NCBI GenBank assembly: GCA_013178155.1
Contig: JABLXH010000058.1
Coordinates: 1-55,426 of the forward strand
Direction: 5' to 3'
Source: Armatimonadota bacterium
GTDB taxonomy: Bacteria > Armatimonadota > Zipacnadia > Zipacnadales > UBA11051
Length of the DNA: 55,426 bases
Shown: piece by piece, positions 10,762-26,359 of the stretch
How positions within the stretch are numbered: the stretch's first letter is position 1
Layout of the letters: every line of letters begins with the position of its first letter
Program-made: the position numbers and the translations under genes
Notes under the pieces: generated by a model
Databases searched by the model: none
What the model was told of the DNA's origin: nothing
What the model saw: only the letters and a program-made list of their open reading frames with translations

Positions 10762-12099
10762 TCAGTTGAACTGCAGGGAGTACGCGGCCTCACCGTGTTG
10801 GCTGACGTCCAGGCCGAGGTCCTCTTCCTGGGGAGAGACGCGCAGGCCGACCACGATGTCGAGGACCCTCAGCACGACCCACGAGCCGCCGTAGCCCCAG
10901 GCCACGGTGGCTGCCACCGCGGCCAACTGCACGAGGATCTGATGGGGGTTGCCAAAGAGCAAGCCATCACCGCCGGCCGGGTTGATGACCTTCTGGGCAA
11001 GGATCCCTGTAGCCAGGGCACCCCACATGCCACCAACGCCGTGGCAGGCGAAGACGTCCAGTGTGTCGTCCAGGCGGGTGCGCTTGGTAAGGATCACGAC
11101 GTACTGGCAGATGACCCCCGCCAGGACTCCGATGGCCATAGCCGCCGGGACGTCCACAAACCCTGCCGCCGGGGTGATGGCCACCAGGCCGCATACTGCG
11201 CCGATGGCCGCGCCCCTGGCGCTGGGCTTGCCCGTGCGCATCCAGTCCACTGCCATCCAGCTCATGGTGGCGAAGGCGGCAGCGATGTTGGTAACGAAGA
11301 GCGCCGAGACCGCGAGGCCATTCATGGCCAGGGCGCTGCCGGCGTTGAAGCCAAACCAGCCGAACCACAGCAGCGAGGCGCCGAGGATGACGTAGGGTAC
11401 GTTGCAGGGCTGGTGAGGTTCATCGGCCAAGCACCGGCGGCGGCCGATGACGGTGGCGGCGGCCAGAGCGGAACTGCCTGCCAGCACATGGACTACCGTG
11501 CCGCCGGCGAAGTCCAGTGCTCCCAGGTCTCGCAGCCACCCGCCGACGCCCCAGACCCAATGGGCCACCGGGGCGTAGACGACGGTCACCCAGATGACGA
11601 TGAAGATCAGCAGCGACCGGAACCGGATGCGTTCGGCGAAGGCGCCGATGATGAGCGCCGGTGTGATGGCCGCGAACTTCATCTGGAAGAACGCAAAAGC
11701 CAGATGCGGGATAGTTCCCGCGTAGTCGGCGTTGGGCACGTTGCCCACGGTTCGGAGCAGCGCGAACCTGAGTCCACCGACAAGGCCACCGACCGAGGGG
11801 CCAAAGGCGAGGGAGTAGCCCCAGAGCACCCACACGCCGGTGGCCACGGCGAAGATCGCCAGGCACTGGACCAGCGTGGACAGCAGGTTCTTCTGCCGCA
11901 CCAGCCCACCATAGAAGAAGCCCAGGGCCGGCGTCATGAGCATGACGAGGCAGGCCCCCAGTGACACCCACAGGGTGTCGGTCGCGTTGATGCCATCCCC
12001 CGCCAGGGCTATCCCTCCACCGCCATAGCGGCTGAACACCGCCAATAACGCGGCGAGGCCCAGCATCACAATGGCCATCGAGATCATCTTGTGCTTCAC
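10762..12099 (-). CDS. amt: Ammonium transporter Amt
   Basis: 445 residues, eleven-plus helices, preceded by a signal-like first helix (SMAIVMLGLAALLAVF). Family hallmarks are all present: TPALGFFYGGLVRQKN in helix 2, the segment DFAGGTVVHVLAGSSAL with the first pore His, WFGWFGFNAGSAL, and DVFACHGVGGMWGA with the second pore His of the twin-His pair. It moves ammonium/ammonia across the inner membrane. The GTG start has AGGAGG five bases upstream. No glnK/PII gene adjoins it. Upstream, 81-119 bp before the start, lie four GAAACA boxes in exact 11-bp register on its coding strand, suggesting nitrogen-type control. Confidence 0.96.
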   Translation of the reverse strand: MKHKMISMAIVMLGLAALLAVFSRYGGGGIALAGDGINATDTLWVSLGACLVMLMTPALGFFYGGLVRQKNLLSTLVQCLAIFAVATGVWVLWGYSLAFGPSVGGLVGGLRFALLRTVGNVPNADYAGTIPHLAFAFFQMKFAAITPALIIGAFAERIRFRSLLIFIVIWVTVVYAPVAHWVWGVGGWLRDLGALDFAGGTVVHVLAGSSALAAATVIGRRRCLADEPHQPCNVPYVILGASLLWFGWFGFNAGSALAMNGLAVSALFVTNIAAAFATMSWMAVDWMRTGKPSARGAAIGAVCGLVAITPAAGFVDVPAAMAIGVLAGVICQYVVILTKRTRLDDTLDVFACHGVGGMWGALATGILAQKVINPAGGDGLLFGNPHQILVQLAAVAATVAWGYGGSWVVLRVLDIVVGLRVSPQEEDLGLDVSQHGEAAYSLQFN

Positions 12100-12179
12100 C
12101 TTTGCCTCCTTTTCGCGCGCGGTGCCTGCGCCAGGCCAGCGTTGCGCGACTGCTGTGATGCCCCATCATTGGTCAGCAG

Positions 12180-12218
12180 TGTTTCGCGGCTGTTTCAGGG
12201 TTGTTTCACCTTTGTTTC
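12180..12218 (-). promoter_or_regulatory. Four helically phased GAAACA boxes upstream of amt
   Basis: On the plus strand TGTTTC occurs at 12180, 12191, 12202 and 12213, each step exactly 11 bp; on the amt coding strand these read GAAACA-N5 four times. The intervening 5-mers (GCGGC, AGGGT, ACCTT) are unrelated, so the boxes rather than a duplicated unit are conserved. Direct half-sites 11 bp apart are the architecture bound by OmpR-family winged-helix regulators (PhoB boxes; actinobacterial GlnR boxes whose half-site is GAAAC, found upstream of amtB). The array is 81 bp upstream of the amt start and 40 bp upstream of the divergent dehydrogenase ORF, so it could control either. Confidence 0.65.
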
Positions 12219-12257: not shown

Positions 12258-13298
12258 ATGTTCCTCCCGGTGATGCCCATGCTAGCCGCAGTCATTGAGG
12301 CACCGCAGCAGCTCGTGCTGAAGGACGTGCCCACACCCGACCCGGGGCCCGGTGAGGTGCTGGTGGAGGTGCACGCCTCCGGTGTCTGCGGGACTGACCT
12401 GCACATCCTGCAGGGGGAGTACTGGGGCGACTACCCGCGCATTCCCGGCCACGAGTTCAGCGGCATCGTCGCGGCCCTGGGCGACGGTGTCACTGGCCTG
12501 CGGATCGGCGACCGCGTCGCGATCAACCCCAACCTGCCTTGTGGCCGCTGCCGGTACTGCCTGCGGGGCCAGGTGAATCTCTGCACGGACAACACGGCAG
12601 TGGGTGTGACGCGAGACGGGGGCTTCGCCGAGTACTGTGCCGTCCCGGCGGCGCTGGCGCTGCCCCTGCCGGAGACAGTCTCGCTGCTGGCAGGGGCTTT
12701 GGCTGAGCCGGTGTCGTGCTGCCTGCACGGGATGGACCGGGCGCGGCCGAGAGTAGGTGATACGGCCGTCATCCTCGGCGGAGGGACCATCGGGCTGATC
12801 CTGATGCAACTGGCACTGCATGCCGGAGCGGCGCGGGTGGTCATCGTGGAGCCGTTGCCAGCCAAACGCGAGCTGGCGCTGCGTCTGGGTGCGACGGCGG
12901 CACTTGACCCGGTGGCGCTGGGGGAGGGTTTGGGCGAGGCGGTGCTGCAGGCCTGCGCGGGAGCGGCGGACCTGGTGGTCGAGGCGGCTGGGCGGCAAGA
13001 GACGGCGCAACAGGCGCTACGGCTGGTTTCCCCGGGCGGGACGGTGCTCTTCTTTGGGGTGTGCCCACCGGACGCCGAGGTCGCGCTGCGGCCGCACGAT
13101 GTCTTCTTTCACGAGCAGACCCTCGTCGGCAGCTACATCAACCCCTTCACCTGCATCCGGGCCCTGGACCTGCTCGCGGCCGGCGTGGTGCAGGTGGAGC
13201 CGCTTATCTCCCACCAACTCGCCCTGCCGCAGACCGCGGAGGCCTTTGCCCTGGTGGCGCGGGGGGAAGCAACCAAGGCGGTGGTCACCCGCATCTGA
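12258..13298 (+). CDS. Zinc-dependent medium-chain alcohol/polyol dehydrogenase
   Basis: 346 residues of the MDR superfamily. The catalytic zinc ligands are visible in ASGVCGTDLHIL (Cys) and PRIPGHEFSGIV (His-Glu); four structural-zinc cysteines lie in CGRCRYCLRGQVNLC; the Rossmann motif is AVILGGGTIGLILMQLAL around residues 175-190. It oxidises a secondary alcohol or polyol (sorbitol or threonine dehydrogenase-like) with NAD(P). Three in-frame ATGs at 12258, 12273 and 12279 precede LAAVIEAPQQ; homologues usually begin at the last, but no clear ribosome site decides. It is divergent from amt and shares the region with the GAAACA array. Confidence 0.92.
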   Translation: MFLPVMPMLAAVIEAPQQLVLKDVPTPDPGPGEVLVEVHASGVCGTDLHILQGEYWGDYPRIPGHEFSGIVAALGDGVTGLRIGDRVAINPNLPCGRCRYCLRGQVNLCTDNTAVGVTRDGGFAEYCAVPAALALPLPETVSLLAGALAEPVSCCLHGMDRARPRVGDTAVILGGGTIGLILMQLALHAGAARVVIVEPLPAKRELALRLGATAALDPVALGEGLGEAVLQACAGAADLVVEAAGRQETAQQALRLVSPGGTVLFFGVCPPDAEVALRPHDVFFHEQTLVGSYINPFTCIRALDLLAAGVVQVEPLISHQLALPQTAEAFALVARGEATKAVVTRI

Positions 13299-25645: not shown

Positions 25646-26359
25646 ATGTCCAGACACATCCTGATCTGCGAAGGCGATCCGAATCAGGCCGAACTGCTGA
25701 GCCGCCTCATACAGGCGCAAGGGTACCATGTGACAATCGCCCGGCAGGGCGGGGAGACGCTCGCGCGGGCGGGCAGTGAGAACCCGGACATCGTTGTGCT
25801 GGACCTTACCCTCCCGGACATGGACGGTCTGGACGTCTGCCGCCGGCTGCGCGCCACAGCGTTCATGCCCATCATTCTCATCAGTGAACGCAGCAGTGTC
25901 CTTGACTGCGTCGTCGGCCTGGAAGTCGGTGCCGATGACTATCTGGCGAGGCCTTTCCGAACAGACGAGCTGCTGGCGCGGGTGGAGGCTCTGCTCAGAC
26001 GCGCCAGCGTCTATGCGCAGCGACTGGGGCCCACGGAGACCCTGGTGCAAGGGGACCTGACCATTGACCGGGAGGGGCGGGAAGTGCGACTTGCCGGGCG
26101 GCCGGTCCACCTGACTCCCAAGGAGTTTGACCTGCTTTGGGCCCTTGCTGAGCAGCGGGGCGGGGTAGCCCGTTCGGAGAGCCTGTTGCTGACGGTCTGG
26201 GGCTATGACTCTCGCATCCGCACGCGGACGCTCGACGTGCACATCGGGCGGCTGCGGGCGAAGCTCGAGTTTGACCGACGGCACCCGCAGCGGATTCTGA
26301 CCGTGCCCGGCGTCGGCTATCGGCTGTGTACCCCGCGGGCGGCCGAGGTCGCCGCCTGA
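25646..26359 (+). CDS. Atypical orphan OmpR-family response regulator
   Basis: 237 residues from ATG 25646 (AAGGA upstream). Residues 1-120 are a receiver domain: the phospho-acceptor Asp53 in VVLDLTLPDMDG and Ser80 are present, but the usual acidic pair is ICEGD (Glu9, Gly10) and the invariant Lys of the KPF motif is Arg102 (DDYLARPF). The C-terminal half is an OmpR/PhoB winged helix: RPVHLTPKEFDLLWAL, RTRTLDVHIGRLRAKLE and ILTVPGVGYRL. No histidine kinase is adjacent. Degenerate pocket plus no kinase suggests phosphorylation-independent action, as in GlnR-type regulators. Its targets are unknown; the phased boxes at 12180 are a candidate because this fold binds 11-bp direct repeats. Confidence 0.9.
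   Translation: MSRHILICEGDPNQAELLSRLIQAQGYHVTIARQGGETLARAGSENPDIVVLDLTLPDMDGLDVCRRLRATAFMPIILISERSSVLDCVVGLEVGADDYLARPFRTDELLARVEALLRRASVYAQRLGPTETLVQGDLTIDREGREVRLAGRPVHLTPKEFDLLWALAEQRGGVARSESLLLTVWGYDSRIRTRTLDVHIGRLRAKLEFDRRHPQRILTVPGVGYRLCTPRAAEVAA

Follow-up and report, generated by a model that had tools for sequence, protein, structure and literature searches.

What controls the ammonium transporter gene amt of this Armatimonadota bacterium, and does the regular array of short boxes in front of it form an operator of the GlnR type? The window, by which we mean the whole stretch of 55,426 nucleotides analyzed here, carries TGTTTC on its plus strand at 12180, 12191, 12202 and 12213, corresponding to four minus-strand GAAACA boxes in steps of 11 bp. 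The initial annotation had described four boxes in exact register with unrelated spacers, and the exact hexamers are indeed present at all four positions, separated by the mutually unrelated spacers GCGGC, AGGGT and ACCTT. The array spans 119 to 81 bp 5' of the amt start codon, its boxes beginning 119, 108, 97 and 86 nt upstream of the GTG; a box-like stretch at 12169, with 3 mismatches, lies outside it. The features of the locus are as follows.

12213..12218, minus strand: box 1 (GAAACA), the most distant from amt, 119 nt 5' of its start
12202..12207, minus strand: box 2 (GAAACA)
12191..12196, minus strand: box 3 (GAAACA)
12180..12185, minus strand: box 4 (GAAACA), the closest to amt, beginning 86 nt 5' of the start codon
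12165..12170, minus strand: predicted -10 hexamer AATGAT, exactly 10 nt 3' of the GAAAC of box 4
10762..12099, minus strand: amt, ammonium transporter (PF00909, 402 bits), GTG start, presumed target
12258..13298, plus strand: divergent zinc-dependent dehydrogenase gene, sharing the intergenic region with the array

A three-box pattern finds two exact, overlapping matches in the window and none in 100 dinucleotide shuffles. Across the 5.53-Mb genome the same exact pattern occurs only in the amt array, and a control pattern does not occur at all. The shorter unit GAAAC-N6-GAAAC is found as eight exact pairs in the genome: three make up the amt array, two represent one site on contigs C61 and C202, and three lie within coding sequence. 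The site on C61 and C202, 84 nt before glnA, is the only other intergenic pair in the genome; the identical flanks of glnA on these two contigs probably reflect an assembly duplicate. In a search for two boxes together with a -10 hexamer, glnA ranked first (0 mismatches, on both contigs) and amt next (1 mismatch), and only these two genes exceeded the control. Exact pairs that fall within coding sequence, such as one in an ORF reading as pstB, were discarded, as were two-mismatch matches of the motif, whose number equaled that of the control.

The targets recur across the phylum. The pattern GAAAC-N6-GAAAC-N10-TANNNT yields 82 matches in 255 genomes versus 20 for the reversed control (totals counted by hand), and by our own count the downstream gene is glnA in 17 matches, amt in 15, nirB in 5, a PII gene in 2 and a NarK-type transporter gene in 2. 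Representative targets were assigned by Pfam as PII (PF00543), PEP carboxylase (PF00311) and ATP-grasp (PF04174). NirB scores 855 bits with TIGR02374 (cut-off 578), the NarK family match of 276 bits lies under its cut-off of 312, and the remaining downstream labels come from reading the sequence. Nitrogen-assimilation genes, namely glnA, amt, glnB/PII, nirB and narK, are thus among the motif targets. The boxes are therefore not scattered at random without a link to nitrogen genes, since amt and glnA are the only genes of their own genome to exceed background and phylum-wide they stand before glnA, amt, glnB, nirB and narK.

Other genes carry GlnR-type boxes as well. Seven further pattern matches, in seven genomes, precede the gene of a conserved protein, about 140 aa long, that matches nothing in Pfam or NCBIfam and is encoded in several genomes near nirB and in or near nitrite/nitrate assimilation clusters; we regard it as a candidate for a new nitrate-assimilation gene. 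Boxes also stand 5' of a circularly permuted ATP-grasp gene in three genomes (G057, G061 and G066) and 5' of a PEP carboxylase gene in two (G057 and G066).

Which protein might read these boxes? A search of the genome recovered nine OmpR-type proteins and one helicase-like match. The GlnR-clade member among them is encoded outside the window, on contig C207 (6770-7417, 216 aa). It possesses an OmpR-family winged helix (PF00486, 88.6 bits) and no Response_reg match in Pfam, and reading the ORFs of the surrounding 3.2 kb by eye revealed no histidine kinase. Judged by its sequence, the C207 regulator is an orphan with a degenerate, non-canonical receiver. A profile of 15 regulator orthologues searched against the PDB scored 213 bits for GlnR, the matched entries being those of M. 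tuberculosis and Saccharopolyspora, versus 166 bits for RegX3; a low-confidence model of actinobacterial GlnR (pLDDT 59) served only to read the identity of the PDB entries. In a tree, a branch with support 99 separates the regulators, together with actinobacterial GlnR, from all canonical OmpR proteins. Because the single C207 protein scores slightly higher against RegX3 (94.9 bits) than against GlnR (89.7 bits), it is the profile and the tree that support the GlnR placement; NCBIfam lists no GlnR among the regulator's best matches. By that placement, the predicted nearest kin of the C207 family among OmpR-family proteins is GlnR.

Alignment by eye of the regulator's AVFIHG to VLVDAR of GlnR puts His in place of Asp-50, the residue for homodimerization, which the C207 protein therefore lacks and several orthologues in the phylum keep. 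Asp-50 appears to vary inside the clade, so we did not require it for membership, and dimerization may differ.

Strong members of the regulator family (at least 193 bits, the next match scoring 183) occur in 49 of the 255 genomes, and a diverged subgroup occurs in 12 more; the motif WGxxYEGGERTVDIHIRRLRAKL is a feature of these 12 diverged regulators. The gene lies 56-350 bp from glnA in six genomes (G012, G013, G017, G034, G050 and G055) and 3 kb away in G001, and it adjoins the glnA box in three others (G222, G223 and G225). In six genomes (G077, G079, G080, G100, G122 and G137), 3-4.3 kb separates the gene of the diverged subgroup from nirB, narK or related genes that carry boxes. The C207 gene itself is on a contig separate from both amt and glnA.

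The regulator search of genome contigs found named GlnR homologues in Actinomycetota and Chloroflexota; its single Armatimonadetes record groups with canonical OmpR proteins in the tree. GlnR-clade homologues were also seen at six loci in named Latescibacterota, Omnitrophota and Chloroflexota genomes. Another OmpR-family regulator, encoded within the window at 26096-26326, is placed by the tree with the canonical-type proteins and not with GlnR. A prepilin motif in the same genome reads ILFPVFARAREKARQ.

Boxes and regulator occur together. Of the 61 genomes that encode a GlnR-clade regulator, 33 have the motif before glnA, amt, glnB, nirB or narK, as against 1 of the 194 that encode none (p = 1.7e-23, a value that is too small because the genomes share ancestry). 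The one boxed genome lacking a regulator is G020, whose assembly is 85% complete; the regulator is present in its congener G016. Among the 199 genomes outside the definition of the motif, the figures are 18 of 40 with the regulator and 0 of 159 without; a match in G226 sits at a contig end and was left unclassed, and counting it against the model gives p = 1.1e-13, again too small for the same reason. Shared ancestry is less of an objection to a comparison inside a single family, f3. There, G013, G024 and G034 possess both regulator and boxes, and in nine genomes (G008, G018, G026, G030, G032, G036, G037, G038 and G039) glnA is not preceded by a box. The regulator survey found no match in those of the nine that it covered, G038 and G039 being too incomplete for its threshold; G036 has a canonical-type protein as its best match. 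About half of the regulator-bearing genomes give no exact motif match, a pattern of this kind being blind to degenerate sites such as GTAAC/GTTAC.

Could another member of the OmpR family, PhoB/PhoP- or RegX3-like, use the 11-bp repeats and count the nitrogen genes as part of its regulon? We consider this improbable. The genome encodes about nine OmpR-type DNA-binding proteins, direct repeats of 11 bp are typical of the family as a whole, and GlnR and PhoP cross-regulate amtB in Streptomyces (PMC10704036). However, the boxes track the GlnR-clade regulator, and canonical OmpR proteins are present in box-less genomes too. The GlnR-clade gene, moreover, adjoins glnA or the nirB cluster, and the lone exact pair near phosphate genes falls inside the ORF reading as pstB and lacks a -10 hexamer. 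The proposal of the initial annotation, nitrogen control of a GlnR type, is thus upheld as a prediction, with a GlnR-clade regulator in the genome, its orthologues adjoining glnA in relatives, and boxes before nitrogen genes.

The spacing of the boxes and their distance from the promoter are both strict. Of 55 regions upstream of amt and glnA, 23 contain a pair of boxes spaced by 11 bp and 6 contain one spaced by 22 bp, and no remaining spacing between 6 and 21 bp is represented in more than 1 region; the 11-bp pairs are found in 20 of the 28 regions from regulator-bearing genomes versus 3 of the 27 others. At 21 of the 23 amt/glnA sites, picked by their boxes alone and with windows taken by hand, TANNNT follows the second box by exactly 10 nt, and the stretch examined contains it at no other offset. 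The AATGAT of the window stands at the same offset and is one base off TANNNT. With the -10 hexamer 10 nt past the last box, the boxes cover the -35 region and the DNA upstream of it. Class-II activators such as PhoB occupy these positions, and the pho box consists of 11-bp direct repeats that replace the -35 element about 10 nt upstream of the -10. The present array resembles the PhoB/pho box complex (PDB 1GXP) in placing 11-bp repeats where a -35 would be; it differs in half-site sequence and target genes, and the receiver of PhoB is phosphorylatable.

This geometry bears on the suggestion that the boxes repress, or that they serve the divergent dehydrogenase gene at 12258. The array does sit between two divergent genes, and GlnR represses some actinobacterial genes, such as ald in Amycolatopsis (PMC4140684). 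Against both versions, the strict 10-nt gap to a -10 on the amt side, at the position of a -35, is the geometry of an activator, and the glnA sites show the same arrangement of boxes and -10 without a dehydrogenase as divergent neighbor. Since boxes and -10 register face amt, the dehydrogenase gene (12258-13298) is probably not a target, and we judge this explanation as a whole to have little chance of being correct.

The exact three-box pattern finds no match in 60 relatives, a misleading result because the search was too strict; conservation was judged instead by reading the DNA upstream of the orthologues. Within the order, amt orthologues share 69-75% identity. Ladders of GAAAC or GAAAC/GTAAC in 11-bp steps lie 5' of amt in nine relatives (G016, G020, G024, G046, G047, G049, G050, G053 and G057). 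Five of these (G016, G020, G024, G050 and G053) have GAAAC pairs at 11 bp, G047 has a longer ladder, and G046 has a six-box ladder that runs GAAAC, GTTAC, GCAAC, GTAAC, GAAAC, GAAAC, each 11 bp from the next. The number of boxes varies, two being usual, and no boxes were found in four relatives in which amt follows glnB (G009, G014, G044 and G045). A strict count of amt upstream regions gives boxes in 9 of 15 genomes with the regulator versus 2 of 11 without (p = 0.05), a weaker contrast to which misplaced starts (G053) and broken genes (G017) contribute. The array is therefore not absent before amt in relatives, although the four-box length varies, and orthologous promoters retain the half-sites though their spacers differ.

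An NtrC/sigma-54 promoter with incidental GAAAC boxes can be dismissed almost with certainty, for although NtrC/sigma-54 governs nitrogen genes in proteobacteria and a -24/-12-like site with 3 mismatches lies at 12119-12133, such matches number 527 in the window against 572 expected by chance, and the boxes are kept in several families of the phylum. Equally negligible is a functionless array produced by chance or as a structural repeat such as a short tandem duplication, for slippage could yield four consecutive copies but the spacers are unrelated, glnA has the same half-sites and -10 spacing, and orthologous promoters keep their boxes with different spacers.

Comparison with actinobacterial GlnR highlights both what is shared and what sets the present system apart. 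The operator consensus in Streptomyces, Mycobacterium and Saccharopolyspora is gTnAc-n6-GaAAc-n6-GtnAC-n6-GAAAc (PMC10704036), and in a solved GlnR transcription complex four DNA-binding domains lie head to tail on four sites (PMC10704036). Shared are the 5-bp GnnAC half-sites in 11-bp steps before glnA and amt; amt, glnA, PII and nitrite-reductase genes as targets; and an orphan OmpR-type regulator of the same tree clade with a degenerate receiver. The four-site promoter at amt matches the four head-to-tail domains of the solved complex, and the longer array at amt than at glnA parallels Streptomyces amtB, where three a-b pairs speed the response (PMC5826061). Unlike actinobacterial operators, which alternate a (gTnAC) and b (GaAAC) sites, the boxes of this genome are all GAAAC, that is, b-type; two boxes are usual in relatives, the phylum is a different one, and the regulator carries His where GlnR keeps Asp-50. 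The variant operator that the initial annotation had envisaged stands insofar as all four boxes are GAAAC; as a radical variant it does not, since other members of the phylum use mixed GTAAC/GTTAC/GAAAC boxes. Because the all-GAAAC form is confined to part of the phylum, with mixed or alternating boxes as in actinobacteria found in G046, G047 and G060, the homotypic operator is a mild departure. Strict a-b alternation is not universal in the known family either, because double-a sites occur in S. venezuelae (PMC5826061). GlnR/TnrA of Bacillus, of the MerR family, has the name and the nitrogen role in common but belongs to an unrelated protein family whose operators are of another kind.

The GlnR reading is founded on the sequence and spacing of the boxes, on their conservation and co-occurrence with the regulator, on the linkage of the genes and on the placement of the family; under it, the array is very probably the operator of a nitrogen-starvation promoter activated in class-II fashion. 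The C207 regulator would bind head to tail on the 11-bp half-sites before amt and glnA, as two dimers or a tetramer on the four boxes of amt and as one dimer on the two boxes of glnA, dimerizing without the conserved Asp. Box 4, at about -27 to -23, and box 3, at about -38 to -34, would take the place of a -35 element. Given boxes 3 and 4 at that position and a -10 hexamer 10 nt downstream, the bound regulator would recruit RNA polymerase as a class-II activator, like PhoB and GlnR, and would activate rather than repress in response to nitrogen limitation.

The initial annotation had suspected that control of this type might not be described in the lineage, and in the open-licence literature we found no paper that brings GlnR together with Armatimonadetes or Fimbriimonas. 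We thus propose GlnR nitrogen control in a lineage for which that literature gave no description; it would work like GlnR through a protein in the predicted GlnR clade, with two apparent secondary differences, the all-b-type boxes and the lack of an Asp-50 equivalent. A broader scenario, for which we see even chances, is that GlnR-type control is ancient and common to this phylum, Actinomycetota and Chloroflexota; here its operator would be homotypic, simplified to GAAAC boxes, and another branch of the phylum would have a diverged GlnR-clade regulator devoted to nitrate/nitrite assimilation clusters.

These results provide a concrete predicted nitrogen regulon for a poorly studied phylum and suggest that GlnR control arose earlier, or has been transferred more widely, than the literature on actinobacteria indicates. 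A natural operator with one type of half-site is useful for separating the roles of a and b sites, and a receiver without the Asp offers an opening onto how such a GlnR-clade protein would sense nitrogen.
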